Positions 1 through 43,561 of a stretch of 64,000 nucleotides of DNA are shown piece after piece; the first letter of the stretch is position 1; each line of letters opens with the position of its first letter. The notes under the pieces are model-generated. The model searched no databases and was not told the origin of the DNA. It worked only from the letters and a program-made list of their open reading frames with translations. The stretch is from Pirellulimonas nuda (GTDB lineage: Bacteria; Planctomycetota; Planctomycetia; Pirellulales; Lacipirellulaceae), in assembly GCF_007750855.1 (NCBI RefSeq), contig NZ_CP036291.1:4836001-4900000 (forward strand). Direction: 5' to 3'. The position numbers were made by a program, and so were the translations under genes.

Positions 1-1755
1 GGCAGGGCGGAAGGTGACTACCACGGGGCGGCGTGGAACGACGGCGACTTCTACAAGTGGATCGAGGCGGCCTGCGCGTCGCTGGCGGTCTCGCCCAACA
101 CGGACCTCGAGCAGGCCGTCGCCGAGTCGGTCGACGCCATCGCAGCGGCCCAGCGCGACGACGGCTACCTGCACACCCCGGTGCTCATCGCCCAGCGGAA
201 CGGCGACCCCTCCGCCCGTCCATTTGCCGATCGGCACGACTTCGAGGTGTACAACATGGGTCACCTGATGACGACCGGGTGCATCCACTTCCGCGCTACC
301 GGCAGTCGCGAACTGCTAGACGTAGCGGAGAAGGCGGCGGGCTTCCTCGAAGACGCCTTCGCCAACCCCACGCCCGAATTGGCCCGCAACGCGGTCTGTC
401 CCTCACACTACATGGGAGCGGTCGAGCTCTACCGCACCACCGGCGATTCCTGCTACCTGAGGTTGGCCGAGAAGTTTCTCAGCATGCGGAACCTTGTCAC
501 CGACGGCGGCGATGACAACCAGGACCGCATCCCCTTCCTCCAGCAGAACGAAGCGGTCGGCCACGCAGTGCGGGCCAACTACCTCTACACGGGAGCGGCC
601 GACCTTTATCTCGAAACGGGCGACCCAGAGCTTTGGGCGCCGCTCGAGGCGGTTTGGGAGAACGTGGTGGAGAAGAAACTCTACGTCACGGGCGCGTGCG
701 GCGCCTTGTACGATGGCGCATCACCGGATGGCTCCGAGGCCCAATCACAGATTAGCCGCATCCATCAGGCCTACGGCCGCAACTACCAGCTCCCCAACAC
801 GACCGCGCACAACGAGACCTGCGCCGCGATCGGCGCGCTGATGTGGAACTGGCGGATGTTCTCTGCCGCGGGCGAGGCCAAGTACATCGACTGGCTAGAG
901 CTGGCGCTCTACAACGCTGTCCTCTCTGGCGTCAGCCTTGAGGGGACCGAGTACTTCTACGTCAATCCGCTCCGACGCGTCGACCCTGAACCGACGGAGC
1001 TGCGTTGGTCGCGCACGCGTGAAAAGTTCATCGTGTCGTACTGCTGTCCTCCCAACGTCTTGAGAACGATCGCGGAGCTCGGCGCCTACGCCTACAGTAA
1101 GTCGGAAGTCGGCGTGTGGGTGAACCTGTACGGCAGCAGCTCCCTCAACACGCGTGTGCACGGCAATCTGCTGCGGATTACGCAAACGACCGACTACCCC
1201 TGGGACGGCGATGTTGGGCTGACGATCGACGCGTGGGAAGGAAAAGAGCTGACGCTCCACCTACGGGTCCCCGGCTGGGCATCCGGCGCCAAGATCCTTG
1301 TGAACGGCGAAGAAGTAACCTACGGCAAGGCCGGGGGCTACGCTGAGATCAAACGCCGCTGGCGTGCGGGAGACACGGTCCGGTTCAACCTGCCGATGCC
1401 GGTGGTGATGCTTGAGTCCCACCCCTTGGTGGAAGAAACACGCAACCAGGTTGCCCTGAAGCGTGGGCCGATCGTGTACTGTTTGGAGTCGACCGATCTA
1501 CCAGATGGCGTCGACCTCCCGACGGTGGCGCTCCCGCTGTCGTCACGGATCACGGCGACCTACAAGTCAGACAAGCTGGGCGGGGTTACCGTGCTGGAGG
1601 CAGAGCTGCTTGCCCGCGACCCAGAGTCTTGGAAATCACTTTACCGGCCGTTGAGCGGCCAAAAGCCGCGACCGCTGCGTGGCGAGTTTGTGCCCTACTT
1701 CGCGTGGGGCAATCGCGGCAAATCAGAGATGACGGTCTGGCTGCCGCGCGACTAG
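1..1755 (+). CDS. GH127 beta-L-arabinofuranosidase, 5' truncated by window
   Basis: The reading frame is open from base 1, so the true start lies outside the window and 584 codons are visible. The protein matches GH127 (DUF1680), retaining beta-L-arabinofuranosidases that remove terminal beta-L-Araf from plant glycans. The cysteine nucleophile and zinc-site pattern of the family is present: a Glu-x-Cys (NETCAAIG, codons at 814 and 820) and a Cys-Cys pair (YCCPPN, codons at 1042 and 1045). The N-terminal FYKWIEA segment, typical of the (alpha/alpha)6 barrel, confirms that the frame upstream of the first ATG at 181 is coding. The gene faces the minus-strand operon tail to tail, and the two stop codons share the bases CTAG. 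The exact substrate cannot be told from sequence. Confidence 0.9.
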   Translation, partial: GRAEGDYHGAAWNDGDFYKWIEAACASLAVSPNTDLEQAVAESVDAIAAAQRDDGYLHTPVLIAQRNGDPSARPFADRHDFEVYNMGHLMTTGCIHFRATGSRELLDVAEKAAGFLEDAFANPTPELARNAVCPSHYMGAVELYRTTGDSCYLRLAEKFLSMRNLVTDGGDDNQDRIPFLQQNEAVGHAVRANYLYTGAADLYLETGDPELWAPLEAVWENVVEKKLYVTGACGALYDGASPDGSEAQSQISRIHQAYGRNYQLPNTTAHNETCAAIGALMWNWRMFSAAGEAKYIDWLELALYNAVLSGVSLEGTEYFYVNPLRRVDPEPTELRWSRTREKFIVSYCCPPNVLRTIAELGAYAYSKSEVGVWVNLYGSSSLNTRVHGNLLRITQTTDYPWDGDVGLTIDAWEGKELTLHLRVPGWASGAKILVNGEEVTYGKAGGYAEIKRRWRAGDTVRFNLPMPVVMLESHPLVEETRNQVALKRGPIVYCLESTDLPDGVDLPTVALPLSSRITATYKSDKLGGVTVLEAELLARDPESWKSLYRPLSGQKPRPLRGEFVPYFAWGNRGKSEMTVWLPRD

Positions 1756-4700
1756 TCCTTCAGTGGCGTGATCCAAAGCACCGGCTCTTTAGGCCTTAGG
1801 CTCGTGCGGCCTGCCAGTCTTGCGGTTTCCTCGGTCGTCTGACCGCTCTTGGGATTGATCCACGTCAATCGATAATCTGCGGTCGTCCCGGGAAAGTCTA
1901 CCGCCAGCCGGTCGTTGCCGTTCAGTGCGTAGAGCAACCGGCTGCCCTTTGGTCCAACCAGTTGCAACACATATTCGTCATGCGACTCCAGGGGCCGCAT
2001 CCAAACGAGCTGCCGGGCAAGACCCTCCGGCAGCGGCGGCACATCGGCGAGCGATCCTCCCCCCATCAGGCTGGCCCAGCCATCGTTGTCGCTGCGGCAG
2101 TACATACCGGCGAAGTAGGTTACTGCCTTCTGGGGGTAGAGGATGCGGTACTCGCGGACGGCGCGGGCGATCGAAGCGGGGTCGGCCGGTTTGGGGTTCA
2201 TCTGCCGAAAGTGCTGCCGCGGGGCGAGGTTCACGCCCCCCGCCGGGGCGTACAGCCCCCCCTCTCGGTCGTAGCACCAGTAGCGGATGTCGATCACGTC
2301 CACGACACTCCGCCAAGGCTCGTGCTTCAGAAGTTCGTCCTGCACGTCTTTCGTAGCGGCCAGCGCGACCAGTGGCTCATTGCCCGTCTCGTCTTTCCAT
2401 TGCCGCACAACGTCGAGCCAGAACCGCGTAAACTCCAACGGGCCGGTGTACTCCGCGCCGATCGAGTGCAGCACGTTATTGCTGCCCGCAAGCGCTTCGA
2501 GGCCGTGACGGATCTGCCCCTCGTGGAGGGCGCGCCGGCGTTCGTCCGTGACGTCGTAGAACTGCTCGGCGAGGAAGATCCGCTTGTCGCCCACGTACGG
2601 GGGGGGCTCCGGTAGCCCCGTGTCGTTGACGTTGTTGGCGGGCCGCCAGGGACAGTCTGCCCAGTGGGCGCCCGCCTCCAGGATGTTGTGTTGAAAGTAG
2701 TGCTGGTGGATCAGCACCAGGCCGCGCTGGTCGCAAAGCTCGGCGAACCGCGCCAGCCGTCCCCAGTACCAAGGGTTGAACCTGGTCAGGTCGTACTTGC
2801 TGAGCCCATCCCAGGCGGTCCCTTCCCCGGTGCGGGCGAAAGGCTGCTCGAAGAACGGCGGCGTCACGGCGCCGTCCGCGCGGCGGACCATCAGGTGGTC
2901 GTCGCGGCGGCGGTCGTACCACAACCCGTAGTGGTGGTCGTACGCCACCTCGCCCCGCTCGGCCATCCGATCGGCGACCGATTCTAGCTCGTCGGTCAGC
3001 CCCTCTCCGTAGCGTCCCGGGGCAAACCGCGTGATCGACGGGCCAAACTCCGCCGCGTCCTGCGACCGGATCGTCCCGCGCCACCAGGTCGGGTTGACAT
3101 GCCCACCGGTCATCACCTTGCCACCGAGCGTCAGCCAGCCGTTCACCACACGGACCGCAGGCGGTGCTTCCGATTCTTTCTCAGCCGGCGTCGAACTTGG
3201 AATCGATTCTCCATGCGCGGCGTCTTCTATCTCGCTCCGATGGGCGCGCCGCATCCGTGCTTCGATCAGGCCTCGGAGGGTGGGGGTGCGGTGCGTTGAG
3301 CTCGCGACAAACTTTTCCGCCTGCTCGACGGTAGGGTTGGTTGACTCAACCGGGTCGAGCAAGAACGGCCCTGCCGCCTCGGCGCGTGCTTCTCCTAACC
3401 GGTCGCCGACCTGCGTCTGGTAGAGGCTCAACGGTTTGACGAACTCGCTTTGTCCAAGGAACACGGCGTCGCCAAAGGGTTCCGCCCAGTAGCCCAGCAC
3501 CCAGTTCTGCGCGGTCGGGGGGTTGAACGCACGGATCACCGAGGCCTGGCACTGCCAAAGCACGCAGTTGGCGGCCGACCAGCCCGCGCCGGCCGGCTGA
3601 CCCCAACGGTTGACGATGCACAAGTCGGCGCCGTCGATGCGCACGTTGTCAAAAAGCACGCCGCTCGCCCAGCTCTCTAGCGGGCCGCTGTCTCCCCTCG
3701 CACGCGCAGCGTAGCAGTTCACGAACGCGTTCGGACCGGGCGCACAGTGGCCCACGCCGAAGTCGTGAATGCCCTGTTCGGCGAAGCATCGCAAGAATAG
3801 CGTCAGGCCCCCGTTGGTCATGTAGTTGTGCCGACGGTACCCCCCCGGTTCCGAGACGGGTGACAACGCGAGGCAGTCCTCCACAGTGACGTGCCGAGTG
3901 GCGTCGCGCAACAGCACCGCCCCTCCGGCGAAGCCCTCAAACCTAACCCTGCGCACCCACAGGTCTTCGGCATGGTTGGCCACGACGCCGTACCAACTGT
4001 GTTCTTCGTCGCGGGGATTCGCCGCGTCGCAGTCGGAGCGTAGTGTCAGGTCTTCGATGCCTGCCCCCGTTACCCGATCGGTCGGAGCGTGCGTCTGGAT
4101 CGTGCCGCCGCCAAACCGTTCTTCGATCGCGGTGGTGATCGGCGCGTCTAAGGTTACGACTGCCCCATCCACCGATTTGATGATCCGCTCCCAACGGATG
4201 TCGCACCTCCCCGCGCGCCAACCGACGCCGGTAGCGCGGGCGCCGAGCGCAGCGATCCACGCGTCTGTGGAGGGCCGGACGACCACGACACGATCGCCGG
4301 TCTGAAGACCGTGGTTCTGTTCCAGCCGCAGCCGAGTGGCGCCAACCGGGACATAGGCGTCCGCAATCGCCACAGGCTTACCGCGAGAGCCGGATGCCTC
4401 CTGTGGGCCCTGACGCCCGATCCGGACAAGCGGGCGGCGGCCGACGCCCTTTGCGATGATCGTCGTCCCTCCCGCTGCTGCGCCTGCCCCCCGCAGCACC
4501 ACGCCGCTGGCTGTCAGACGCAGGTCGTCTGCGACTTGATACTCGCCGGCCCGAAGCAGCACGGCGCCCCGGAAACCGGCGTCGTCTGGCTGGAGTGCGG
4601 AGACGGAGTCGATCGCGGCTTGAATCCGTCGCCCGTCTTCTCTCGCTTCCGGCGATAGAAAAATCTTCACTGCGGGCGAAGGGATCGGCCGGTCGCCACC

Positions 4701-4880
4701 CGCGTAGCCGCAGGAAGAAAAATCGGGTACGCGGTTCCCCAGTTCATCGGTCGCGTACACCAGCTTGCCGTTGTCGTCTGGACGCACGGGCCAGTCCGGC
4801 GCGCACAGCGCTCCCTGCGATCGCATGAGGACCGTGATCAGGTAGCAGGCGAGTAGGGAATGCCGCCGGGAGTTCTTCAT
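1752..4880 (-). CDS. Secreted right-handed beta-helix plus TIM-barrel glycosidase-like fusion
   Basis: The chosen ATG at 4880 gives a signal peptide (MKNSRRHSLLACYLI...) and about 1042 residues. An in-frame ATG at 4916 would overlap the upstream gene. Residues about 50-540 look like a pectate-lyase-type right-handed beta-helix, with short repeated turns such as GVVLRGAGAAAGGT and VTVEDCLAL. Residues about 580-1040 look like a second catalytic module: NPWYWGRLARF, LVLIHQHYFQHN and IGAEYTGPLEF suggest a glycosidase TIM barrel. It ends in a small beta domain (WINPKSGQTTEETA) resembling the C-terminal domain after DUF4038 apiosidase-like barrels, and it may belong to DUF6298. It is the last gene of the operon, 10 bases after the BASS transporter gene. 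Substrate unknown; a plant-wall polysaccharide is likely. Confidence 0.75.
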   Translation of the reverse strand: MKNSRRHSLLACYLITVLMRSQGALCAPDWPVRPDDNGKLVYATDELGNRVPDFSSCGYAGGDRPIPSPAVKIFLSPEAREDGRRIQAAIDSVSALQPDDAGFRGAVLLRAGEYQVADDLRLTASGVVLRGAGAAAGGTTIIAKGVGRRPLVRIGRQGPQEASGSRGKPVAIADAYVPVGATRLRLEQNHGLQTGDRVVVVRPSTDAWIAALGARATGVGWRAGRCDIRWERIIKSVDGAVVTLDAPITTAIEERFGGGTIQTHAPTDRVTGAGIEDLTLRSDCDAANPRDEEHSWYGVVANHAEDLWVRRVRFEGFAGGAVLLRDATRHVTVEDCLALSPVSEPGGYRRHNYMTNGGLTLFLRCFAEQGIHDFGVGHCAPGPNAFVNCYAARARGDSGPLESWASGVLFDNVRIDGADLCIVNRWGQPAGAGWSAANCVLWQCQASVIRAFNPPTAQNWVLGYWAEPFGDAVFLGQSEFVKPLSLYQTQVGDRLGEARAEAAGPFLLDPVESTNPTVEQAEKFVASSTHRTPTLRGLIEARMRRAHRSEIEDAAHGESIPSSTPAEKESEAPPAVRVVNGWLTLGGKVMTGGHVNPTWWRGTIRSQDAAEFGPSITRFAPGRYGEGLTDELESVADRMAERGEVAYDHHYGLWYDRRRDDHLMVRRADGAVTPPFFEQPFARTGEGTAWDGLSKYDLTRFNPWYWGRLARFAELCDQRGLVLIHQHYFQHNILEAGAHWADCPWRPANNVNDTGLPEPPPYVGDKRIFLAEQFYDVTDERRRALHEGQIRHGLEALAGSNNVLHSIGAEYTGPLEFTRFWLDVVRQWKDETGNEPLVALAATKDVQDELLKHEPWRSVVDVIDIRYWCYDREGGLYAPAGGVNLAPRQHFRQMNPKPADPASIARAVREYRILYPQKAVTYFAGMYCRSDNDGWASLMGGGSLADVPPLPEGLARQLVWMRPLESHDEYVLQLVGPKGSRLLYALNGNDRLAVDFPGTTADYRLTWINPKSGQTTEETARLAGRTSLRPKEPVLWITPLKD

Positions 4881-4890
4881 GGGGTTCGTC

Positions 4891-6213
4891 CTATTGTGTC
4901 TCATCAGCCTCGACATCCGTTAGGCTTGGCGAAACGGGACGCCTTCGCCAGAAGTTCGCCAGCAACGATCCGGAGACGTTCATCCAAGCGATAAAGATCG
5001 CCGCCGGCAGTCCGAGCGAGCCGAGCTTCCCCATCGCTACGGCAAGCCCGGTAGCCATGCCGCCGTTCTGCATGCCCACCTCGAATGCGATGGTGCGGGC
5101 CGCCTGTCGGTCCATGCCTAGTGCGCGGCTCGCCCAGTACCCCAGCCCGAAGCCTAGCACGTTATGCAGCGCCGCGGCCGCGACAAGGGTCGCGCCGACC
5201 GCGAACAGGTACTCCCGGCCCTCCGCGGTGGTCATTCCGGTGACACAGATGATGCCCGCCATCGCTACCGCGGGCATCCAGCGGTCCAGCGACTCCCAGA
5301 CCAACGTCGCTCGATGGTAGAGCGTCCCAAAAGAGAACGCGCCAAGGACCCACATCAGCAGCTCAACGTACAGTGCGGAAGAGTTGGCCGTTCGGGGCCA
5401 GACGCCCGCATGCCAAGCGATCGGCGCTGCCACGCCCAGCAGCGCCAAGCCCCAGATGACGCGCCTGCCGGCGGGGCTGGCGTGCTTCAGGTAGTCGTGG
5501 ATCAGCGCCGCGCCGATCGGCACGGCCACGATCTTGATGATCGAGGCCATCATGCCTACGAAACTGACCACGACGGACGTCCCTTCGAGGAATGTGCTCG
5601 CGAGCGCCCACATCCAGAACGGAGTAACCACCGGCGCCAGCAGCGTGGCGATCGCGGTCAGAGTGATCGACAGCGCGAGGTCGGCGCGGGCTATGTAGGC
5701 CATCACGTTCGACGACAAACCGCTCGAGCAGGAACCGATCAGCACCATCCCTGCGGCCAGCTCTGGCGGAAGATCAAAGAGGATGGCCAGGCCGAATCCC
5801 ACCAGCGGCATGATGGTGAACTGACAAACGAGCCCCACCGCGACCGGCCACGGCTGCCGCGCCACTCCGGCGAAGTCGCGGAGGCTCATCTGCGTCCCCA
5901 TGCCGAACATCACCGCCTGAATCAACACTAACAGCAACAACTTGTAGTTGGCCGAGTCGGACGGGAACGGCCGAAACACCCAAGGCGCCAGCATGGCCGC
6001 GACCACGGCCGCAACGATCCATGCCGTGAACTGGAAGGGGCGCAAAGAGCGGATGGCGACGACCCCCACCGCAAAGGCGACCGCAGAACAGATCGCTGAG
6101 GTCCGCCACAACTCCGCGTTCTGAGTCGCGAACCCGACCGCGACGCCGATCACCGCGAGCAGAGCGCCGCCGAGGCAGACGCGTTCAAGCCGGTGGGTCC
6201 AATCAGGAATCAC
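4891..6213 (-). CDS. BASS family (bile acid:sodium symporter-like) transporter
   Basis: The protein has 440 residues and about ten hydrophobic segments, with the SBF/BASS fold. The family region from about residue 90 contains MFGMGTQMSLRDF, LIGSCSSGLSSNVMAYIARADLALS and FEVGMQNGGMATGLA. These correspond to the conserved Na+-site and crossover segments of the family. Members move organic anions (bile acids, pantoate, 2-keto acids) with sodium across the inner membrane. The GTG start overlaps the stop of the racemase-like gene by four bases (GTGA), so the two are translationally coupled. Its place after the sugar-acid enzymes suggests that it moves a small carboxylate, taken up as substrate or exported as product. 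This role is inferred. Confidence 0.85.
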   Translation of the reverse strand: MIPDWTHRLERVCLGGALLAVIGVAVGFATQNAELWRTSAICSAVAFAVGVVAIRSLRPFQFTAWIVAAVVAAMLAPWVFRPFPSDSANYKLLLLVLIQAVMFGMGTQMSLRDFAGVARQPWPVAVGLVCQFTIMPLVGFGLAILFDLPPELAAGMVLIGSCSSGLSSNVMAYIARADLALSITLTAIATLLAPVVTPFWMWALASTFLEGTSVVVSFVGMMASIIKIVAVPIGAALIHDYLKHASPAGRRVIWGLALLGVAAPIAWHAGVWPRTANSSALYVELLMWVLGAFSFGTLYHRATLVWESLDRWMPAVAMAGIICVTGMTTAEGREYLFAVGATLVAAAALHNVLGFGLGYWASRALGMDRQAARTIAFEVGMQNGGMATGLAVAMGKLGSLGLPAAIFIAWMNVSGSLLANFWRRRPVSPSLTDVEADETQ

Positions 6214-6869
6214 AGCACGCTCGCCAAGTAGTCGATCGCGATCGGAGGGCTGGTGAGGATTGGCGCCCGCCCGGCGTCTGGCGGCAGGCCCTCCGCGACC
6301 CGAGCCATCGACGCCTGCGCCAGCACGATGACGTCGACGCTGGTGGCGAGCTCTTTCAGCGCATCGGCGACCATTGCGTCGTGAGTTTCGGGGTCGCCCC
6401 CCATCAGCGCCTCGAAGGCGCCTTTACATAGTCGCGTTGTGAGATCGATCGTCGATCCCTGGGCCGCGGCGCGCCGCTGGATCAGATCGGCCGTGGGGCC
6501 GAGCGTGGTGGAGAGCGTGGCGGCGACCCCGATCCGGCCTGCGTGGCGGACCGCTTGATCGGCCATCGGCTGGTCGACCCGCAGCACCGGGACGCCGACG
6601 AGCTTTGCAGCGGACTCCACCGCCGAGCCGATCGACGAGCAAGTCACTAGCACGAAGTCCGCCCCCGCGGCCTCGGCCGCCTCGACGTGGCCCGCCACGC
6701 GGCGCGAGACGCTCGGCGTCAGCTCGCCACAGCGGATGACCTCTTTGATGAGGCTGTCGTCCGCGATGTTGAACACCTCCACGCCGGGCAGCTTGTCGCG
6801 GCACAACGCGGCGAACACCGGCACCAGCGTTGCCGAGGTATGGATCAATCCGAGGGTCTTCTTCGACAC
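6210..6869 (-). CDS. Asp/Glu/hydantoin racemase superfamily protein
   Basis: I chose the GTG at 6869, two bases after the kinase stop and preceded by AGAGGA. It gives 219 residues that begin directly with MSKKTLGLIHTSA. An ATG at 6902 would overlap the kinase gene. Both cysteines of the two-base racemase mechanism are visible, in LVTCSSIGS and TTRLCKGAFEAL. Family members racemise aspartate, glutamate or hydantoins, isomerise maleate or decarboxylate arylmalonates. The setting, between a DUF1537 kinase and a BASS transporter, argues against amino-acid metabolism and for an isomerase or decarboxylase acting on a small hydroxy or oxo acid. Family assignment is firm; substrate is unknown. Confidence 0.8.
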   Translation of the reverse strand: MSKKTLGLIHTSATLVPVFAALCRDKLPGVEVFNIADDSLIKEVIRCGELTPSVSRRVAGHVEAAEAAGADFVLVTCSSIGSAVESAAKLVGVPVLRVDQPMADQAVRHAGRIGVAATLSTTLGPTADLIQRRAAAQGSTIDLTTRLCKGAFEALMGGDPETHDAMVADALKELATSVDVIVLAQASMARVAEGLPPDAGRAPILTSPPIAIDYLASVL

Positions 6870-6870
6870 G

Positions 6871-8250
6871 CTAATCCTCTTCTGCTGGGGCGCCTTGAGC
6901 AAACGTCACGAAGTAATCGGGGCGACCAACCTGCCCCCCTTTGAAAGCCATCTCCAGCCCGTCCACGCCGGCCCGAGAGGCCCAAACGCGGCAGAGCGGC
7001 GCGCCGCGCGATTGCGATTCGATCATCTCCAGCGAAGTAATCCCCATCGCACGCGCCGCGTAGCTGGATGAGTCTCCCCCCGCGAGGCAGGCCCGACGGA
7101 CGCAAATCCTAGAAACGCAGCCGGCAAGCACCGTTCCCAGCGCACCGCCCAGGGTGCTGGCGACGCCCCCTTCCCGCGGCGAGACACCGTCCCCCTCTGC
7201 GTGCGGACCCCGCGTGGTGTGAACGATTACGCTACGCCCCGCTTGGAGTCCTGCCACGGCAACATCGATCACTCGATTGATCTCACCCTCGGCGCTCTGC
7301 TTGCACATTAGTCGCGGTGCGTTCATGGGCGCTTCAACAAACCCGTGGGTCAGAGCGAAGTCGATCTGCTGGGCGGCAACGGGCGAACGGCTGCCCGACG
7401 CGACCACTACCGGACCGCAGAGGGCGTTCTCAGCCCGGCTCACGGTACCGATGCGATTGCTGGTTGGACCCCATTGAGCAGCGAGCGCCGTCTCAATGCT
7501 CGAGGAGCCGACAGAGAAGCAGGGCGAAGAGTTGTCTGCGTAGGCGTCGATCAAGCGACCGATGGTTTCAATGTGCCGCTCGGTGAGGGCATCAAAGAGG
7601 ACGATCGACGGCCCCGTTCGCAGCAGGTCGCCGAGCGCCTTCGCCGCCTCGGGCCTGGGCAGATCAAGCTTGCGCATGTCGAACAGGCCGATCGCTTTGT
7701 CCGTTTGCCGGGCCAAGTGGCGCCGCAGATCGCTTTCATCCGCCGGCGTGGTTGGGTGCTGCCGCATCGCGGGGTGACGGTCGAGGCGGTGGACCTCCCC
7801 ACCGCTGCCGATGCCGACTTCAGCAAACAGGTTCCCGAAAACGCACCATCGCCCCAGCAGCGGCGCGCCAACGACCAAGGGCACAAAGGGCGAATCAAAC
7901 ACCCCGGCCGCGATGTCGATCACCCGGCCGATGCTCCCGATCTCGGGGGAGGAATCGAACGTAGAACAGACCTTGTAGTGGACGTGCCTTGGGTTGAGCT
8001 CGCGGAGCGCCGTGAGGACCGGCCGCACCTCTGCGTCCAGCTCACTTGTCGGCAGCGCCCGCGAGCGCCCCGCCACGCCGATCGCATCGAGCCCCGGCAT
8101 CGCGGCTAGTTGGTGTGTGGTGGGGGGATCGAGGAACAACCGCGTCCGCATCCCGGCGGTGGCGAGGCACTCCATCGCATCGGTCGAGCCGGTAAAGTCG
8201 TCGCCGTAGTAGGCGATCTTGAGCTCGGATTGTTGAGACGGTACAGACAA
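6871..8250 (-). CDS. DUF1537 four-carbon acid sugar kinase family protein (candidate 3-oxo-isoapionate-type kinase)
   Basis: The open frame extends to 8514, but everything above 8265 lies inside the RuBisCO-like gene. The family start (LKIAYYGDDFTGSTDA) lies just after a TTG at 8250, 14 bases past that gene's stop. I chose this TTG, giving 459 residues. The N-terminal GDDFTGS motif and the C-terminal EMAFKGGQVGRPDYF motif are the two DUF1537 signatures. These ATP-dependent kinases phosphorylate threonate, erythronate, 3-oxo-tetronates or 3-oxo-isoapionate. The gene directly follows a RuBisCO-like protein gene. That pairing is known from D-apionate catabolism, where the kinase makes 3-oxo-isoapionate 4-phosphate for the RuBisCO-like enzyme. 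Substrate is inferred. Confidence 0.85.
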   Translation of the reverse strand: MSVPSQQSELKIAYYGDDFTGSTDAMECLATAGMRTRLFLDPPTTHQLAAMPGLDAIGVAGRSRALPTSELDAEVRPVLTALRELNPRHVHYKVCSTFDSSPEIGSIGRVIDIAAGVFDSPFVPLVVGAPLLGRWCVFGNLFAEVGIGSGGEVHRLDRHPAMRQHPTTPADESDLRRHLARQTDKAIGLFDMRKLDLPRPEAAKALGDLLRTGPSIVLFDALTERHIETIGRLIDAYADNSSPCFSVGSSSIETALAAQWGPTSNRIGTVSRAENALCGPVVVASGSRSPVAAQQIDFALTHGFVEAPMNAPRLMCKQSAEGEINRVIDVAVAGLQAGRSVIVHTTRGPHAEGDGVSPREGGVASTLGGALGTVLAGCVSRICVRRACLAGGDSSSYAARAMGITSLEMIESQSRGAPLCRVWASRAGVDGLEMAFKGGQVGRPDYFVTFAQGAPAEED

Positions 8251-8264
8251 GGCCGTTAAGAACC

Positions 8265-9542
8265 CTAGGGTTTCCGTTCGGACGGCGTGCGCTTGGCCGC
8301 GCCGCCAAAAGCCGCGAGGGACTGGGCAAGCTCCGGGCTTCCCAACGCGGCTTCTTCTAATGATAGTCCGGCGACGGCCGCGTCCCACGCCTGATTCAGC
8401 GCGCGGACCCCGCTGGCCGGGCCGCCGGGGTGCGCCAGGACGCCCCCACCGGCCATGTAGAGCAGGTCGATCGTCCTGGTGCGGCGGTAGGTTTCCGGCG
8501 CTTGGCCACCCCACTGCCCCGAGCTGACTACCGGGAGCGCCTGGTAGCCGCCGAACATGGGTCGTCGGAGCGCTTCAATCGACCGCACCACCGAGTCGTC
8601 GGGCTCCCAGAACTTGTTCTGGATGCCATTGACGTGAAGCTGATCGACCCCCACCAACCGCCAGATCTTCTGATAGGCCGCGAAGTCCATCCCCAGCATG
8701 GGGCAACGATTGAGCATTCCCCAGCCGTTGCGGTGGCCGTGGATGGCGAGCTGACCGCGGTCGCATATACGCTTCGAGGCCACCGGGCCCACGCTATTCA
8801 GGCTAATCATCGCCGCGCTCCCGCCGGCCTGGACTACCGTGTCGTAGTGCCGCAGCATCGCGTCGAGCTCGTCCGTGATGTTGAAGGCGACCATCACCAG
8901 TTTGCCCGTGCGCTGCTGATGATCGCGGACCACCCGCATCACGGCGGCGACCCGATCGTCGAACGGTGAGTGCGGCGGGTTGGCCATCAGCTCGTCGTCC
9001 TTGATGAAGTCGATGCCGGCGTCGACGAGCGTCTGCACCAGCGCCGCCGTGTCGCTCGGCGAGAGTCCGACACTCGGCTTGATGATCGTGCCAATCAGCG
9101 GGCGATCTACCACGCCCGCCAGCCGCCGCGTCCCCGCGACCCCAAACCTCGGCCCCTGGTAGTGCTTCTGGTACTCGGAGGGGAACTCGAGATCGAGCAG
9201 CCGCAGGCCGGAAAACTGTGAAAGCTCGTAGAGGTTGCCCTGCACGGTTGAGATGAGCGTAGGGAGGTTGAAGCCGATGTTCTCTAGCGACCAGGAGACC
9301 TCGATCTCCGCCCGTTGAAACGCGCCGGCCCCCCCGCGACAGCCGGGCAGGCTTGGCTCGCCGACCGACTCCAAGAGCTCAATCTGCTCCACACGGGCCG
9401 AAAAACGCTGCTTCAGCGCATCGGTCTCGCCAGGGACTGCAACGAAGGTGCCCGACGATTGCTCGCCCGCAAGCACGGCCGCTGCGTCTTCGACCTTCAG
9501 CGGTGTTTCGACCAGGTAGCGGGCGTGCAGTCGATCGGTCAT
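8265..9542 (-). CDS. RuBisCO-like protein (form IV), candidate 3-oxo-isoapionate-4-phosphate decarboxylase or transcarboxylase/hydrolase
   Basis: This 425-residue protein has the RuBisCO large-subunit fold. Most catalytic positions are kept: Lys155 (GTIIKP), the carbamylation and metal motif Lys181-Asp182-Asp183-Glu184, His270-Arg271, His303, loop-6 Lys310 and the phosphate-binding GGG365-367. The position of RuBisCO Lys177 is Ser157, loop 6 reads NGIQNKFWEPDD, and the Asn-Ala-Thr strand reads FNITD. The proton-handling centre thus differs from carbon-fixing RuBisCO, and there is no small subunit or phosphoribulokinase nearby. Two RuBisCO-like enzymes are known to decarboxylate or hydrolyse 3-oxo-isoapionate 4-phosphate, working after a DUF1537 kinase, and such a kinase gene follows here. 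The ATG lies two bases after the permease stop. Confidence 0.87.
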   Translation of the reverse strand: MTDRLHARYLVETPLKVEDAAAVLAGEQSSGTFVAVPGETDALKQRFSARVEQIELLESVGEPSLPGCRGGAGAFQRAEIEVSWSLENIGFNLPTLISTVQGNLYELSQFSGLRLLDLEFPSEYQKHYQGPRFGVAGTRRLAGVVDRPLIGTIIKPSVGLSPSDTAALVQTLVDAGIDFIKDDELMANPPHSPFDDRVAAVMRVVRDHQQRTGKLVMVAFNITDELDAMLRHYDTVVQAGGSAAMISLNSVGPVASKRICDRGQLAIHGHRNGWGMLNRCPMLGMDFAAYQKIWRLVGVDQLHVNGIQNKFWEPDDSVVRSIEALRRPMFGGYQALPVVSSGQWGGQAPETYRRTRTIDLLYMAGGGVLAHPGGPASGVRALNQAWDAAVAGLSLEEAALGSPELAQSLAAFGGAAKRTPSERKP

Positions 9543-9544
9543 GG

Positions 9545-10516
9545 CTACTTTTCGCTCCTGCTTACACGGTCAATGGCTACGGCGACCAGGATCACGGCGC
9601 CCTTGATCACCTGCTGCCAATTGGGCGACACGTTTTCGAGGGCGAGGCCATTGTTGAGGATACCAATGATCAGGCACCCAAGGACGGTGCCGAGCACCGA
9701 GCCGCGTCCTCCAGACAGCGAGGCGCCGCCGATAACAACCGCGGCGATCGCGTCCAGCTCGTCTGCGACGCCGGCGTTGGGTGTCGCGGAATTGACACGG
9801 GCCGTCATTAACAGCCCCGCCACCCCGGCGAGCCCGCCGCAGGTGGTGTAGGCCAGCAGTTTCACCCGCCTGACGTCTACGCCGCTTAGTTCGGCCGCGC
9901 GCTCGGCGCCTCCGACGGCGTACAGGTGGCGACCGAACCGGGTGCGCATCGTTACAACCCAGAACAACAGCACCAGCCCCGCCGCGACCCACACCGGGAC
10001 CGGGACGCCGAGCAATCTCCCCGTGCCGAGCTGGGCAAAAGACTCGCCGAGCCCGGTGATCGGGTGACCGCCGGTCCACAGCATGGTGAGGCCACGTGCG
10101 ATGCTGAGCATGCCCAGCGTCGCGATAAACGGCGGGAGCCCGAACCGCGTGATGGCGAGCCCGTTGAAGCAGCCCGCCGCGGCCCCCACAAGCACGCCGG
10201 CGGTGATGGCCCCGGCGACGGTAAACGACACGTGCATCCCGATCGGCTCGAGGTCCAGACCAGTCTTTAGCAGCCCCGCCGCGACCGCGCCGGCAAGCGC
10301 CAGCACCGATCCGACCGAGAGGTCGATCCCCCCCGACAGGACCACCATGGTCATGCCGATCGACAGGCATAGGTTCACGGAGATCTGGCGGAGCACGGTC
10401 AGGCTATTGTCGACGGTCAGGAACCGGTCGTTGGCCAGCGTCAGCCACAGCACCAACAGGGCGAGCGCGATCAGCGATTGCAGCGGAGCGATGCGTTGCC
10501 GGATAGTTGTGGCCAT
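9545..10516 (-). CDS. Sugar ABC transporter permease (RbsC-like)
   Basis: The 323-residue protein is an inner-membrane permease of the BPD_transp_2 family with about eight to ten membrane segments. Recognisable stretches are GMTMVVLSGGIDLSVGSV in the N-terminal half and the coupling region GRHLYAVGGAERAAELSGV. It also has VIGGASLSGGRGSVLGT near the C-terminus, all typical of ribose and related pentose or branched-sugar exporter-fold importers. It sits two bases downstream of the ATPase gene and two bases upstream of the RuBisCO-like gene. Translation is therefore coupled, and uptake is co-expressed with catabolism. It would pair with the ATPase at 10519 and the binding protein at 12719. Confidence 0.93.
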   Translation of the reverse strand: MATTIRQRIAPLQSLIALALLVLWLTLANDRFLTVDNSLTVLRQISVNLCLSIGMTMVVLSGGIDLSVGSVLALAGAVAAGLLKTGLDLEPIGMHVSFTVAGAITAGVLVGAAAGCFNGLAITRFGLPPFIATLGMLSIARGLTMLWTGGHPITGLGESFAQLGTGRLLGVPVPVWVAAGLVLLFWVVTMRTRFGRHLYAVGGAERAAELSGVDVRRVKLLAYTTCGGLAGVAGLLMTARVNSATPNAGVADELDAIAAVVIGGASLSGGRGSVLGTVLGCLIIGILNNGLALENVSPNWQQVIKGAVILVAVAIDRVSRSEK

Positions 10517-10518
10517 GC

Positions 10519-12075
10519 CTAAGCCGGTTGTCGGGGTGTCGATTTGGGCAACGCGGCTTGAAGCAGCGCGTCTTCGGTTGCTTCTTCCCGCAAGAACTCG
10601 CCGGAGATCCGTCCTTCGCAGAGAATCAACACGCGGTCCGCCAACGCGAGCACCTCGGGGAGTTCGGACGAAACCAACACGACCGCTAGCCCCTGGGCGG
10701 CGAGGTCGCCGATGAGGCGGTAGATCTCTCCCTTGGCGCCGATGTCGATCCCGCGGGTGGGCTCGTCGAGCAACAGCACCTTAGGCCTGGCGGCAAGCCA
10801 CTTCGCCAGCACCACCTTTTGCTGATTGCCGCCGCTCAGGTTTCGCACCTTCTGGCGGAGCGATGGAGTCTTCACGGCCATCCGATCGGTGAACTCACGT
10901 GCTACGCGTTGCTCGCGGGCCGGACTCAGCAGCCCCACACCGTACCCGCGATCGCGTAGGGCCAGGCAGATGTTGTCGGTAACGCTCATACCCAGCACCA
11001 AGCCCTCGGACTTCCGGTCCTCGGGCGCTAGGGCCATCCCGGCGCGGATGGCGCTGCGGGGCGACCTGAGATCGATCTGTTTCCCGTCAACACAAACCAC
11101 GCCGGAGGCCCGTCGCGGATAGAGCCCAAACATGCACTGCAGCAGCTCCGTCCGGCCGGCTCCCATCAGCCCGAATAGGCCGACTACTTCACCCCGCACA
11201 ACCGAAAAACTGATGTCATCGAGACGTGGTAGCAGCGAGCGTCCGGTTCCGGACATGGCAAGACGTTTGACTGTGAGCAGCGGCGAAGACCCCATCGGCG
11301 CCGGGCTCTTGATGCTCGGAAGCGCGTCTCGACCCACCATCAACCGCACCAGTTCATCGTGCGTCGTGCCCGCGAAGGGCTTCGAAGCGATGAAGCGACC
11401 GTCGCGAAGAACAGTAATGTCGTCGGCAATTTTGGCGAGCTCCTCTAGGCGGTGCGTGATGTACACCAACCCAACACCGTCGTCCTTCAGGCAGCGGATC
11501 AGGCGGAAGAGCGCCGCGGATTCTTGACCGGTGAGCGCCGAGGTGGGCTCGTCGAGGATCAACACCCGTGAATCGCACGTCAGAGACCTTGCGATCTCAA
11601 TTACCTGTTGCGATGCAATCGAGAGCTGCTCAACGCGGGTACTAGGGTCGACTCTCAACCCAAGGCGGGCTAGCAGGGCCACGGCGTTGCGTCGCATCTT
11701 GCTGTAATCGACTAGCCCGAAGCGATTGAGCGGCTCGCGGCCGAGGAATAGATTCTCGGCAATCGAGAGCGATGGAACGAGCGTCAGCTCTTGGTGGATG
11801 ATCGACACCCCCGCGGCGTGCGCCTCGCGAGGGTTGCGGAACCGCACCGGCTGGCCGTCCAGCAGGACCTCGCCAGAATCGGCCTGAAAGACGCCGGCCA
11901 GTATGTTCATCAGCGTCGACTTGCCGGCGCCGTTCTCGCCGAGAACCGCGTTGAGCCTCCCCCGGCGGACCAGCAACCGAGCGCCGTCGAGGGCCCGCAC
12001 CCCGGGGAACGACTTGCAGATGCCACGCGCCTCAAGCACCGGCGGGGGTTCGTCGTTGGGGGCTGCTTGGGGCAC
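10519..12075 (-). CDS. Sugar ABC transporter ATP-binding protein, duplicated NBD (RbsA/MglA-like)
   Basis: This protein of 518 residues has two fused nucleotide-binding domains, as in RbsA and MglA. The first has a canonical Walker A (GENGAGKSTL) and Walker B (LILDEPTSAL). The second has a degenerate Walker A (GLMGAGRTELL) with an intact signature (LSGGNQQKV) and Walker B (LLLDEPTRGID). This asymmetry is normal for the family and means only one site hydrolyses ATP efficiently. Translation begins at a GTG eight bases after the DUF2291 gene. It energises uptake of the operon's sugar through the adjacent permease. The sequence does not reveal the sugar. Confidence 0.94.
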   Translation of the reverse strand: MPQAAPNDEPPPVLEARGICKSFPGVRALDGARLLVRRGRLNAVLGENGAGKSTLMNILAGVFQADSGEVLLDGQPVRFRNPREAHAAGVSIIHQELTLVPSLSIAENLFLGREPLNRFGLVDYSKMRRNAVALLARLGLRVDPSTRVEQLSIASQQVIEIARSLTCDSRVLILDEPTSALTGQESAALFRLIRCLKDDGVGLVYITHRLEELAKIADDITVLRDGRFIASKPFAGTTHDELVRLMVGRDALPSIKSPAPMGSSPLLTVKRLAMSGTGRSLLPRLDDISFSVVRGEVVGLFGLMGAGRTELLQCMFGLYPRRASGVVCVDGKQIDLRSPRSAIRAGMALAPEDRKSEGLVLGMSVTDNICLALRDRGYGVGLLSPAREQRVAREFTDRMAVKTPSLRQKVRNLSGGNQQKVVLAKWLAARPKVLLLDEPTRGIDIGAKGEIYRLIGDLAAQGLAVVLVSSELPEVLALADRVLILCEGRISGEFLREEATEDALLQAALPKSTPRQPA

Positions 12076-12083
12076 GGCGGCGG

Positions 12084-12716
12084 CTACTCAAGCTCGATTG
12101 AAACGGGGGCCGCCTTGAGCGGGCGTGCAAAGCGCTGGGGGTCTTTGACTTCGGCGCACGCGACGAAGCTCAGCCGCCTTCCCGGCCGGGCGCCTTCGGC
12201 AAGTGGGTAGGCCGCCTTCCGCTCCGCAATCCGGTTCAGCTCGGCCGACAGGTCGTTAAAATCCTGTGAGTTTGCGACTTCTTTCGCTTCAACCATTCCC
12301 GGAGCGTCACGGACCGCGTTGCCAAAGATCGGCCCGGTCTGCAGCACGATGTCGGCGGCGTCGCCGTCGCCGAACGCCACCGCTACGCCGGCGCGGTCGA
12401 CCGACACGATCCGTCCCCTGCCCTGCACGAACAGCATAAACCCGCGGCTTACACCAACGGTGCGGCCGATCGCCTCCCGTGCCTGGCCCGGGTCGCTCTC
12501 GATTGCGTCCAGCGCATCAGACGCCTCGTGGGCCCGAGCAAACCTGGGGGTCAGGGCTTCGGACCAAAGCCGCTCAGCGTAGGCACCGGCCTCGAACTCG
12601 CCGGATTTCTCATTGGACGCGCTGGCGTCGAGCCGCGTAATGTGGACCAGCGGCACAAGCCAAAGCAAAACGCCCAGCAGCGCAAGCCCGATCACCCAGC
12701 GAAGCACCTCCGCCAT
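12084..12716 (-). CDS. DUF2291 family protein, transporter-associated
   Basis: The 210-residue protein has one N-terminal membrane segment (VIGLALLGVLLWLVPL) followed by an extracytoplasmic domain of about 180 residues. The pattern matches DUF2291, a family of unknown function encoded almost exclusively inside RbsABC-type sugar ABC operons. It lies between the binding-protein gene (two bases upstream) and the ATPase gene (eight bases downstream). That is the usual place. A role as a transporter accessory subunit or periplasmic anchor is likely but inferred from context only. Confidence 0.8.
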   Translation of the reverse strand: MAEVLRWVIGLALLGVLLWLVPLVHITRLDASASNEKSGEFEAGAYAERLWSEALTPRFARAHEASDALDAIESDPGQAREAIGRTVGVSRGFMLFVQGRGRIVSVDRAGVAVAFGDGDAADIVLQTGPIFGNAVRDAPGMVEAKEVANSQDFNDLSAELNRIAERKAAYPLAEGARPGRRLSFVACAEVKDPQRFARPLKAAPVSIELE

Positions 12717-12718
12717 GC

Positions 12719-13711
12719 TTACTCCTTCGCTCCATAATCGCCGTAGCGAGAAACGTTCTCAGCGGTCACCAGCTCGACCGCGACGGGGATCGATTGTTCG
12801 AAGTCCCGCTTCCCTTTAAGCCACTGGTCCGCAAACTCGGCCGCCTGCTGGGCCATCTTCTTGGGGAACTGCATCGCCGTGGCGGAGATCTTTCCGTCGG
12901 CAATTGATCGGACGACGTCTTCGGCACCGTCGAACCCGAAAACCTTGATCTGGTCCTTCTTGCCGGCAGATTCAATCGCCTGGTAGGCGCCGAGCGCCAT
13001 CGCGTCGTTCCCACAGAACACGGCCCGGATGCCGGGGCTGCCCTGCAGGATGACCTCCATGACTTCGAGACCTTTGGTGCGATCGAAGTCGGCGCTCTGC
13101 TGGGCGACCATCTTCAATCCTTGATACCGATCGACAACGGAGTGAAACCCCTTGGATCGGGCGCTGGTGTTGTTGTCGCCGGTAAGACCCAACAACTCTG
13201 CGTACGTTCCCTCCTCGCCGACGACCTCTACAAAGTACTGGGCGAGTTCGACGCATCCGGCATAGTTGTCGGAGAGGATCTGCGCGGCCGCGGCGTCGGT
13301 CGCGTTGATCTCGCGGTCGATACAGAACACCGGGACGCCCTTGTCCTTGGCCGTTCGGACATTGGCGACCGAGGCTTCCGAGTCGACCGCGTTGAACAAG
13401 ATGGCGCCGTAGCCCGCAGAGAGGACGTTCTCGAAGGTGGCCGCCTCCTTAGCAACGTCGTTCTGAGAATCGTAGATCACCGCCTCGTGCCCCAGCTCTT
13501 CCGCGCGCGATTTGGCGGCCTCCGCCAGCACAACGAACCAAGGATTGTTGAGCGTCGAAACCACGACCGCGATACGGCCATGCTGCGCGTTCTCGGCGGC
13601 GCCGTGGTCGACGTCCATCGGCTTATCGCCCCCCCCGGGCTCAGCGCAGCCCGTGGTGACGACCATCAACCAAAGCAGCATAAATGCGGCAGGATATTGA
13701 AAAGTTTTCAT
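12719..13711 (-). CDS. Sugar ABC transporter substrate-binding lipoprotein (RbsB-like)
   Basis: This 330-residue protein begins with a lipoprotein signal ending in VVTTGC, so it is probably anchored at Cys22. The rest is a type I periplasmic binding protein. [18 protein letters not shown] and [22 protein letters not shown] form the first lobe, and [20 protein letters not shown] and [17 protein letters not shown] form the hinge and second lobe. This is the ribose/allose class. It would deliver the sugar to the adjacent permease and ATPase. D-apiose-binding proteins characterised by others belong to the same broad class. A 65-base gap upstream separates it from the kinase gene and is the widest gap inside this part of the operon. 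Confidence 0.93.
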
Positions 13712-13776
13712 TGTGAGATGTGCGGAGAAGACGGACGATTCTGGAAGAGCGGAAACAAATTGGTCTTATGATCGAC

Positions 13777-15267
13777 TTACAACACCCGAGCGACAGCGCG
13801 GCTCCAACCTTCGGTCAACTCCGCGACTTCACGCGCGTCACGGGTCGGAGAGAACTGACGCGTTGGACGGGGCATGCTACGCAGGGCGTTTAGTGAAGCC
13901 GCGGGGTCAGCCCCGGACAGGCCTAGACCGACCATCCCGGCCATGGCGGCGCCGAGCGCAGAGGACTGCGGCGTTCCCGAGACATGGACTTCCAGCCGGG
14001 TGATGTCGGCCACCATCTGCATCAACAGCCCATTGCGGGTCGGGCCGCCATCGACATTGAGCGAACGGGGCGCGACCCCGCTGGACTGCATCATCCCGAG
14101 CACGTCGTTTACTTGGTAGGCGATGGACTCAAGCGCAGCACGGACGACGTGCGCCCGATTGGTGTAGGCCGTCATGCCAACGATCGCCCCCCTTGCGTCG
14201 GGGCGCCAATAGGGGGCGCTCAGACCGGCGAACGCCGGAACCAGGTAGACTCCGCCGCAGTCCGCTACGCTAGACGCAATCTGCTCGGACTCTCCCGCGC
14301 TAGCGATTAAGCCCAACTGGTCCTTGAGCCAGGACAGCGTCGCCGCCGAGTTGCTGATGAGCCCTTCCCAAGCGTAGGTCGGCTTGCCATCGAGCACCCA
14401 GGCCAGCGCAGCGACGGCGCCGTTGTCCGGGAGCCGCGGCTCTGGGCCGATGTTCAACAGCACCGATGTGCCGGTGCCAAACGTGGCTTTGGCGTCCCCC
14501 GGCGAAAAGCAGCGTTGTGAGAAAAGCGACGCCTGCGAGTCTCCCATCACCCCACAGATCGGCGCCGGCGACTGCAAGGCGCCCGCGAAGTCACTGGCGC
14601 CAAAGTGTTCGCAACTTTCGCGAACGCCAGCCAGGGCGCAGGGTGGAACGCCGAACAACCCGCAAAGTTCGGGATCCCATGCCAGCGTCTTGATGTTGAA
14701 CAGAAGGGTGCGGCTAGCGTTCGTGTGGTCGGTCGCAAATATCCGCCCGGCGGTAAGGCGGTAGATCAGGTACGTATCGATCGTCCCGACTAGCGCCTCG
14801 CGGCTGCGAAGCTTGTTGGCGATGCCGGGACGCTCGCGGACGAGCCACGCAAGCTTCGAAGCAGAAAAATACGCGTCAAGCTTGAGGCCCGTCCGATCTT
14901 GAACAGAGGCCTCATGCCCGGCGTCCCTAAGCTCTTGACAGATCGCGTCGCTGCGGCGGCACTGCCACACGATGGCTGGCGTTAGCGGTTCACCGGTCGC
15001 CCGATCGAAGACGACGACCGTCTCGCGCTGGTTCGTGATGCTAACGCACTGCAGCCCTTGCAAGTGCTCCGTGTCGCGGTCGCACAAGCGTCGTACGACC
15101 AGCAGGACGTTCTGCCAGATCTCTTCACAGTCGTGCTCCACCCAACCCGGGCGTGGGTAGTGCTGGGCGTGTGGGAGCGATTCCGAATCGATCACCGCGC
15201 CGTCCATGCCAAACAGCAGCGCTTTGGTCGCCGACGTGCTCTGGTCGATGGCCAGGATACACTTCAT
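13777..15267 (-). CDS. FGGY family carbohydrate kinase (GlpK-like; candidate ketopentose/apulose kinase)
   Basis: The protein has 496 residues and two FGGY domains. AIDQSTSATKALLF is the N-terminal phosphate loop, and GLSAPYWRPDARGAIVG with AHVVRAALESIAYQ marks the C-terminal domain. By sequence it leans towards glycerol kinase (GWVEHD, SITNQRET), so an automatic pipeline may name it glpK. The neighbours argue otherwise: its start overlaps the transketolase subunit stop by four bases (ATGA), and a sugar isomerase gene starts the same series. An isomerase-kinase-transketolase order is what D-apiose to D-apulose to D-apulose 4-phosphate requires. Other unusual ketoses are possible. Confidence 0.88.
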   Translation of the reverse strand: MKCILAIDQSTSATKALLFGMDGAVIDSESLPHAQHYPRPGWVEHDCEEIWQNVLLVVRRLCDRDTEHLQGLQCVSITNQRETVVVFDRATGEPLTPAIVWQCRRSDAICQELRDAGHEASVQDRTGLKLDAYFSASKLAWLVRERPGIANKLRSREALVGTIDTYLIYRLTAGRIFATDHTNASRTLLFNIKTLAWDPELCGLFGVPPCALAGVRESCEHFGASDFAGALQSPAPICGVMGDSQASLFSQRCFSPGDAKATFGTGTSVLLNIGPEPRLPDNGAVAALAWVLDGKPTYAWEGLISNSAATLSWLKDQLGLIASAGESEQIASSVADCGGVYLVPAFAGLSAPYWRPDARGAIVGMTAYTNRAHVVRAALESIAYQVNDVLGMMQSSGVAPRSLNVDGGPTRNGLLMQMVADITRLEVHVSGTPQSSALGAAMAGMVGLGLSGADPAASLNALRSMPRPTRQFSPTRDAREVAELTEGWSRAVARVL

Positions 15268-21048: not shown

Positions 21049-21081
21049 ACTCAAACCGCGCTGGATGAAGAGTGATTGCGA

Positions 21082-21098
21082 GGCAGCCCAAGGCTGCC
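21082..21098 (-). other. Intergenic hairpin between prepilin-like gene and GH43/GH29 gene
   Basis: The bases GGCAGCC and GGCTGCC flank a three-base loop, giving a perfect seven-pair stem in the 59-base gap of the minus-strand operon. No T-run follows on the minus strand, so this is not a standard terminator. It could stabilise or process the transcript between the first gene and the enzymes behind it. Functional relevance is a guess. Confidence 0.35.
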
Positions 21099-21107
21099 CC
21101 GATGCCG

Positions 21108-36998: not shown

Positions 36999-37022
36999 TC
37001 TCACGGTGGGCAGTCTCGCTAT

Positions 37023-43460: not shown

Positions 43461-43561
43461 GGCGCCCTTGTCTATCCGTGTGTCGCATCCGATAGGTTCC
43501 CACGCGACGACTGTTGGTCGCGCGACCCGAGTCGTCCATTCTGAGGGACGAGGGCTCAAGA

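Follow-up and report, generated by a model that had tools for sequence, protein, structure and literature searches.

A cassette of four adjacent genes in the planctomycete Pirellulimonas nuda, encoding an SBF-family symporter, an Asp/Glu-racemase-like protein (AGR), a DUF1537 kinase and a RuBisCO-like protein (RLP), probably serves the catabolism of L-aceric acid, a rare, branched sugar of the pectin domain rhamnogalacturonan II (RG-II). The cassette lies in what we call the window, that is, the 64,000-nucleotide stretch at positions 4,836,001-4,900,000 of a 6.62-Mb genome assembled as a single contig (completeness estimate 95.87). A preliminary description of this DNA had paired the RLP with the kinase and assigned them to the 3-oxo-isoapionate 4-phosphate step of D-apionate catabolism, or to a variant of it on another branched sugar acid; our analysis favours the variant over the D-apionate step itself. 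The AGR and symporter genes had been overlooked, as had an ABC transporter, an FGGY kinase, a split transketolase and an isomerase encoded upstream. Gene content, gene order, co-occurrence and family membership were observed directly, and it is from these that we infer every substrate and reaction discussed below.

The RLP (8265-9542, minus strand, 425 aa) matches the Pfam domains RuBisCO_large (PF00016, 215.5 bits) and RuBisCO_large_N (PF02788, 34.2 bits); the genome has no other RuBisCO_large match. We verified K155, S157, K181-D-D-E184, H270-R271, H303 and K310 in its sequence, and found that the K-P-K motif of Pyrococcus RuBisCO aligns with K-P-S in the window protein, which puts Ser157 in the place of the second Lys, at the position of RuBisCO Lys177. 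The residues given in the preliminary description, including this Ser, were thus borne out by alignment. The Ser is not peculiar to the window protein, however, since it is shared by all 33 AGR-linked RLPs of the window clade and by 22 of 23 RLPs from the second type of locus described below, and hence marks the family. With its RuBisCO_large domain and the replacement of Lys177, the protein can be assigned by sequence to form IV of the RuBisCO superfamily. It scores 530.3 bits against the NCBIfam model OiaX (NF042437), under the curated cut-off of 700; 229.7 bits against the form III carboxylating RuBisCO model TIGR03326, which misses the cut-off of 497.45; and 116.5 bits against the MtnW enolase model TIGR03332, far under the cut-off of 513.6.

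The kinase gene (6871-8250, minus strand) has a TTG start and follows the RLP gene head to tail, with 14 bases between the RLP stop and the kinase start; its product, a member of the four-carbon acid sugar kinase family, carries SBD_N (PF07005, 187.5 bits) and NBD_C (PF17042, 87.6 bits). Pfam matches and coordinates therefore agree with the pairing as first described. Against OiaK (NF042436) the kinase scores 388.8 bits, again under a curated cut-off of 700. OiaX and OiaK, and not MtnW, are the nearest named families of the pair, which supports this part of the original proposal.

One base separates the kinase gene from that of the AGR (6210-6869, minus strand; PF01177, 81.5 bits), which in turn overlaps by 4 bases the gene of the SBF/BASS family sodium symporter (4891-6213, minus strand; PF01758, 130.4 bits). 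The symporter is PanS-like and may import a sugar acid; its scores against TIGR00841 (203.5 bits) and PanS (201 bits) both lie under the cut-offs. The AlphaFold2 model of the AGR (pLDDT 95.1) has as its best PDB match the aspartate racemase 1jfl (Z 21.3, rmsd 2.5, 208 residues aligned), and its Foldseek list includes arylmalonate decarboxylase; here and below, absence from a list of structure matches was not counted as exclusion of a family. The first catalytic Cys of the racemases is retained (Cys77), and the second, judging by the alignment to 1b73, is replaced by Gln185. Both residues are invariant in the 32 rows of the AGR alignment, and the Cys and Gln motif is present in all 46 AGR frames. 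The sequence is therefore not that expected of a two-cysteine Asp/Glu racemase, and retention of one Cys with Gln at the second position would suit a one-base proton shift better than racemisation.

To place the cassette among its relatives, we compared 87 RLP loci. A scan of genome contigs supplied 80 of these, the best 80 of 557 relatives; the others are the window, one locus of a further planctomycete genome, G200, and five on plasmids. A DUF1537 relative was present in 79 of the 87. The loci fall into two types, one marked by an AGR, mostly with an SBF symporter (type A, which includes the window), and the other by a dehydrogenase of the PGDH_C family (type B). PGDH_C we take to be the D-apionate oxidoisomerase ApnO; a Cupriavidus PGDH_C protein matched no named NCBIfam family at E 1e-30. 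AGR was found in 46 loci and PGDH_C in 25, with both in only two. The same division was seen in the 67 loci with 5 kb available on either side, out of the 86 RLP-bearing loci that remain when the window is excluded: 36 had AGR alone, 18 PGDH_C alone, 2 both and 11 neither. In this subset the SBF symporter occurred in 26 of 38 loci with AGR and in 0 of 29 without it, whereas a Gfo/Idh dehydrogenase of the type found in G200 accompanied 10 of the 29 AGR-negative loci and 1 of the 38 AGR-positive ones. Since Bacteroidota, Verrucomicrobiota, Planctomycetota, Acidobacteriota, Chloroflexota and Pseudomonadota each contain both types, taxonomy alone does not account for the division.

The absence of PGDH_C extends to whole genomes. 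No PF16896 match was obtained in the window genome at E 1, and the weak match there to a PGDH_C protein (29%) covered only the NAD-binding half. Ten type A genomes out of ten and two other genomes likewise gave no PGDH_C match, in a run in which no control matched; the same kind of search found PGDH_C in 10 of 10 type B genomes, serving as a positive control. According to passages of PMC11747546, the route from D-apiose to D-apionate and onwards involves a lactonase, a dehydrogenase, an oxidoisomerase, a kinase and a decarboxylase, and PGDH_C loci look like this route. In Planctomycetota, RLP, DUF1537, PGDH_C and Gfo/Idh genes stand together in G200 (locus L030, 884-5340) and in Phycisphaerales locus L080. 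The original remark that no such route had been described for this phylum may hold for the literature, but D-apionate-route genes seem to exist there, in species other than that of the window. RLP matches at E 1e-20 were obtained in 23 of 392 sampled genomes of the phylum, and an RLP of at least 60% identity in only two, the window's own and G200.

The link to aceric acid comes from a glycoside hydrolase. The window begins within a plus-strand GH127 gene (1-1755, its start lying to the left of the window; PF07944, 275.2 bits) whose 678-aa product has, by eye, a signal-peptide-like N terminus. This protein scores 575.3 bits against PDB 5mqo, the glycoside hydrolase BT_1003, and 344.7 bits against the next structure, and by sequence appears nearer to BT_1003 than to the beta-L-arabinofuranosidases. 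GH127 proteins from a Bacteroidota locus (L050) and a Chloroflexota locus (L079) gave the same picture, with 823 bits against 394 and 775 against 407, respectively, and the L050 model superposes on 5mqo with a Z score of 49.0 (52% identity, rmsd 2.2, 589 residues aligned). Passages of PMC10850190 and PMC5698469 describe BT1003 as an aceric acid hydrolase, and PMC8218411 gives aceric acid (3-C-carboxy-5-deoxy-L-xylose) as a component of RG-II side chain B, together with galactose, rhamnose, methylfucose, arabinose and apiose.

Taking as BT_1003-type any GH127 with at least 45% identity to that of the window, we found it in 16 of the 38 AGR loci with full flanks, in 1 of the 29 without AGR and in 0 of the 20 PGDH_C loci. 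Among the 19 non-window loci with this class, the GH127 gene of 12 shares a strand with the RLP gene and ends, on its upstream side, no more than 120 bases from the RLP start; in one of the 12 the two genes overlap. Direct precedence of this kind is seen in Bacteroidota, Balneolota and Chloroflexota L079, the RLP of the last falling outside the window clade. A separate GH127-like class, 25-27% identical to the window's, also stands directly before the RLP in L028, L078, L081, L087, L099, L106 and L108; it may act on a different sugar, or possibly be another aceric acid hydrolase.

We also surveyed 195 genomes of one Bacteroidota family, that of Terrimonas L050, which was picked around a cassette-bearing genome. 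This survey did not start from RLP matches, and its genomes were scored by AGR, RLP, GH127 and GH28 searches. AGR was present in 16 genomes and RLP in the identical 16; GH127 was present in 35, that is, in all 16 AGR genomes and in 19 of the 179 others. The difference persisted when only pectin degraders, taken as genomes with GH28, were considered (16 of 16 AGR-positive against 19 of 90 AGR-negative), and with at least three GH28 matches (16 of 16 against 15 of 43) or at least five (12 of 12 against 12 of 21, p 0.012). At the level of the class (295 genomes), AGR was found in 4 and GH127 in 12, these 4 included. In L050 the gene order is GH141 (in two frames), Gfo/Idh, SSF symporter, rhamnosidase-like, GH127, RLP, DUF1537, AGR, SBF and GH2, and L061 repeats it except for two extra genes, one ahead of the rhamnosidase-like gene and the other ahead of GH2. 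In the 10 genomes compared out of the 19 of this family with GH127 and no AGR, the GH127 stretch contained no RLP, DUF1537, AGR or SBF gene; the rhamnosidase-like gene was present in 10 of 10, and the same GH2 gene stood beside GH127 in 8 of 10, in two of them with the extra gene of L061 in between. Since these flanks recur without the cassette, the cassette plugs into a conserved glycosidase locus right after the GH127 gene.

The chemistry of aceric acid suggests how the four proteins might work together. A secreted GH127 would free aceric acid from RG-II side chain B, and the symporter would import its anion. Aceric acid, with an aldehyde at C1 and a methyl group at C5, offers no primary hydroxyl to a kinase and has to be isomerised first; its 2-ketose does have a primary hydroxyl, and the 1-phosphate of this ketose differs from 3-oxo-isoapionate 4-phosphate, of which it is a homologue, by one carbon. 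Because an isomerase is needed ahead of the kinase, and the AGR is the sole cassette enzyme left to place, we propose the AGR, from its sequence and modelled fold, as an aldose-ketose isomerase, which would yield 3-C-carboxy-5-deoxy-L-xylulose by a 1,2-proton shift at its single cysteine. The DUF1537 protein is our candidate kinase for this ketose form; by phosphorylating O1 it would give POCH2-C(=O)-C(OH)(COO-)-CHOH-CH3, in which a 1-hydroxyethyl group replaces the hydroxymethyl of 3-oxo-isoapionate 4-phosphate, POCH2-C(=O)-C(OH)(COO-)-CH2OH.

For the last step two outcomes can be considered. The RLP could move the carboxylate and hydrolyse the product, giving 3-phosphoglycerate and L-lactate through an intermediate that, after carboxyl transfer, would be the 5-deoxy, 5-dephospho analogue of the six-carbon intermediate of RuBisCO, or it could decarboxylate its substrate to a 5-deoxypentulose 1-phosphate. 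Passages of PMC6302742 attribute to Carter et al. 2018 both the decarboxylation and the transcarboxylation/hydrolysis of 3-oxo-isoapionate 4-phosphate by RLPs. We favour the hydrolytic outcome, since the cassette has no aldolase. OiaX is said to be the transcarboxylase/hydrolase and OiaC the decarboxylase. NCBIfam did not serve as arbiter, for the sole model found, NF042437, is named OiaX and described as a decarboxylase. The full proposal of a redox-neutral aceric acid route, in which a one-Cys AGR is the isomerase and the RLP hydrolyses a RuBisCO-like intermediate to 3-phosphoglycerate and L-lactate, is tentative, and we hold it to be possible rather than probable. Its parts are of known kinds; the combination, the substrate and the isomerase role would be new. 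Among the open-licence PMC matches listed, none reports at title or abstract level an aceric acid catabolic pathway or a link between aceric acid and an RLP.

In the RLP tree, a branch with an SH-aLRT value of 100 sets apart 37 rows, among them the window protein. AGR accompanies 33 of these, and is missing from the available stretch in the other 4, two of which (L036 and L074) have the RLP at the extreme end of a short contig. The remaining AGR loci, from Sphingomonadales and Acidobacteriota, Chloroflexota, Cohnella and a haloarchaeal plasmid, are scattered among PGDH_C rows, and the first tree requires at least six changes between types A and B. Rooting this tree with an outgroup failed on account of long branches. 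The plasmid locus (L027, Natronosalvus rutilus, 5848-12695) carries RLP and DUF1537 kinase genes with AGR, SDR and alpha/beta hydrolase genes nearby, and is an archaeal version of the AGR/RLP system.

Several observations weigh against assigning the cassette to aceric acid. Co-occurrence statistics across loci and genomes, as given above, ignore ancestry; when ancestry was corrected for on a quick RLP tree, just 6 independent pairs separated by supported branches differed in AGR, and GH127 changed likewise in 0 to 2 of them and in the opposite sense in none, which is not significant. This test is underpowered, with too few pairs to decide. Two members of the window clade with full flanks (L048 and L077) have neither kinase, nor AGR, nor SBF nearby and are true exceptions, and in two Acidobacteriota loci (L092 and L094) the RLP has AGR as well as PGDH_C in its vicinity, the sole exceptions to mutual exclusion among the 87 loci. 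The symporter is not within the available stretch in 12 of the 38 AGR loci; in two of the type A loci without it, L053 and L057 from Phycisphaerae, another transporter must serve. The BT_1003-type GH127 is likewise missing from the available stretch in 22 of 38, and a gene other than the GH2 one follows the cassette in L052 and L054, which match L050 on the left side. The other GH127-like class is found in Sphingomonadales, Acidobacteriota and a proteobacterium, and the one member tested, from L099, is closest to a GH146 structure. Passages of PMC5698469 place Zobellia GH127 relatives in a carrageenan locus, and such relatives can thus act on other sugars.

The RLP itself gives further reason for caution. 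The catalytic residues of type A and type B RLPs are identical. There are 25 alignment columns that separate the 33 window-clade RLPs from the 23 of type B, and at these the type A rows from Chloroflexota and from Sphingomonadales and Acidobacteriota mostly follow type B. Since the separating residues are mostly not common to the other type A lineages, the RLP sequences carry no sign of a substrate switch, and our attempt to identify convergent specificity residues in type A RLPs yielded no signature of one. Finally, we know of no enzyme of the Asp/Glu-racemase fold that isomerises an aldose.

On a first rival reading, the kinase and RLP would act on 3-oxo-isoapionate and its 4-phosphate, with the oxidoisomerase step carried out by an unrelated enzyme. 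The closest named families, OiaK and OiaX, belong to D-apionate pathways, in which, as in the reaction proposed here, a DUF1537 kinase and an RLP (OiaC or OiaX) act on a phosphorylated branched beta-oxo acid. The RLP active-site residues equal those of PGDH_C-linked relatives, type A and B rows interleave outside the window clade, apiose occurs in the same pectin side chain, and the window holds a 3-hydroxyisobutyrate-dehydrogenase-family gene (41059-41958), beside GH28 and Gfo/Idh genes, whose product could conceivably be a sugar-acid dehydrogenase. The cassette differs from these pathways in several respects: both family cut-offs are missed, PGDH_C was found neither in the window genome nor in any of the 10 type A genomes, and no redox enzyme is present in the cassette, where AGR and SBF stand instead and would be left without a role. 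Moreover, the neighbouring GH127 of aceric-acid-hydrolase type is the class found in none of the 20 PGDH_C loci, and the operon already has an apparently self-sufficient non-oxidative route for a pentose. We therefore consider the D-apionate step, as first proposed, unlikely.

Still less likely, in our estimation, is that aceric acid is the correct substrate and that a FucI-family or other isomerase makes its ketose, leaving the AGR to epimerise or decarboxylate a later product or a by-product. Proteins of the FucI family are sugar isomerases, one is encoded in the window operon, and the AGR has a racemase fold with arylmalonate decarboxylase among its structural matches. Yet a FucI-like gene is present in just 7 of the 46 AGR loci, in 6 of those 7 with both transketolase halves, whereas AGR and RLP occur in the identical 16 of 195 genomes, and two-base racemases have a second Cys that is absent from the AGR. 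That the cassette serves some other branched sugar acid of the plant cell wall, neither apionate nor aceric acid, seems to us slightly more improbable again. Other unusual acids do occur in plants, and the 22 of 38 type A loci without a BT_1003-type GH127, as well as some type A loci with the other GH127-like class, would fit such a substrate; set against this are the BT_1003-type genes directly before the RLP in Bacteroidota, Balneolota and Chloroflexota L079. To our knowledge, apiose and aceric acid are the only branched sugars among the unusual sugars of RG-II. We give very little credence to a reading in which the RLP, in the manner of MtnW or the photosynthetic RLPs, works as an enolase or isomerase and has the kinase as an incidental partner: they share the fold and MtnW models do match, but the MtnW cut-off is far from reached and the DUF1537 relative recurs in 79 of 87 loci.

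The aceric acid cassette can also be set beside three other known systems. The 3-oxo-tetronate and threonate kinases OtnK and DtnK belong to the same superfamily as the window kinase, which scores 160.8 bits against NF043035 and misses the cut-off of 350; their partner is an aldolase-type decarboxylase or a PdxA-like dehydrogenase, whereas that of the cassette kinase is an RLP. With the Asp/Glu/hydantoin racemases, including arylmalonate decarboxylase and maleate isomerase, the AGR shares the fold and the first catalytic Cys, but differs in the Gln found at the second Cys position in 46 of 46 frames and in the RLP alongside it in 16 of the 16 AGR genomes of the 195-genome set. As for RG-II degradation in Bacteroides thetaiotaomicron, compared on glycosidases only, the BT_1003-type GH127, GH141, rhamnosidase-like and GH2 genes around the Bacteroidota cassette are the same, and type A loci would add a dedicated cassette for the released sugar.

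Upstream of the cassette, in one run with it on the minus strand (9545-18543), lies a set of genes that probably constitutes, from the families encoded, a non-oxidative route for D-apiose, which would come from the same side chain. It comprises an RbsC-like permease (9545-10516; NF007067, 296.8 bits, cut-off 398), an RbsA-like ABC ATPase (10519-12075, an open frame whose role was judged by eye from its sequence), a DUF2291 lipoprotein (12084-12716; PF10054), an RbsB-like sugar-binding protein (12719-13711; NF007936, 231.4 bits, cut-off 337), a glycerol-kinase-like FGGY kinase (13777-15267; PF00370/PF02782; PRK00047, 527.7 bits, cut-off 498), the C-terminal (15264-16289; NF004559, 208.7 bits) and N-terminal (16280-17134; NF004559, 268.6 bits) halves of a split transketolase, and an L-fucose-isomerase-family protein (17131-18543; PF02952, 92.5 bits), which could be the D-apiose isomerase. 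The non-oxidative D-apiose route reportedly set out by Carter et al. in 2018 consists of an isomerase, an FGGY kinase and a split transketolase, and all three families are present in the window. The L-fucose-isomerase-family protein had no match among PDB sequences at E 0.001. RbsB was of no use in testing the apiose reading, as its best structures (2fn8 first, 352.8 bits) are named ribose-binding proteins and are not specific. Parts of this gene set also stand near the RLP in L058, L063, L071, L044, L060, L086 and L089.

The wider neighbourhood is rich in pectin-type enzymes. Besides the GH127, it encodes a fusion of a GH43-like N-terminal part with a GH29 alpha-L-fucosidase (18559-21177; GH43 below the Pfam cut-off, a BT_3657-like domain above it), a GH78-type rhamnosidase (33735-37004) and a GH28 protein (42096-43559). 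To the left of the window lie a GH95 gene and, immediately before GH127, the gene of an apiosidase-like PF13204 protein. Between GH127 and the symporter lies the gene (1752-4916, minus strand) of a large protein, 1054 aa long, which carries a DUF6298 domain (624.9 bits). Bythopirellula L034 has a 50% relative in the equivalent place next to its cassette, and L059 has a 39% relative.

The abstract of PMC12168206 describes RG-II as a pectin domain conserved across plants. If the cassette does serve aceric acid, it would fill a gap in the flow of carbon from the most complex plant polysaccharide and would give a physiological role to a large clade of RLPs in Bacteroidota, Verrucomicrobiota and Planctomycetota. 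It would also add a new reaction to those of the Asp/Glu racemase fold.

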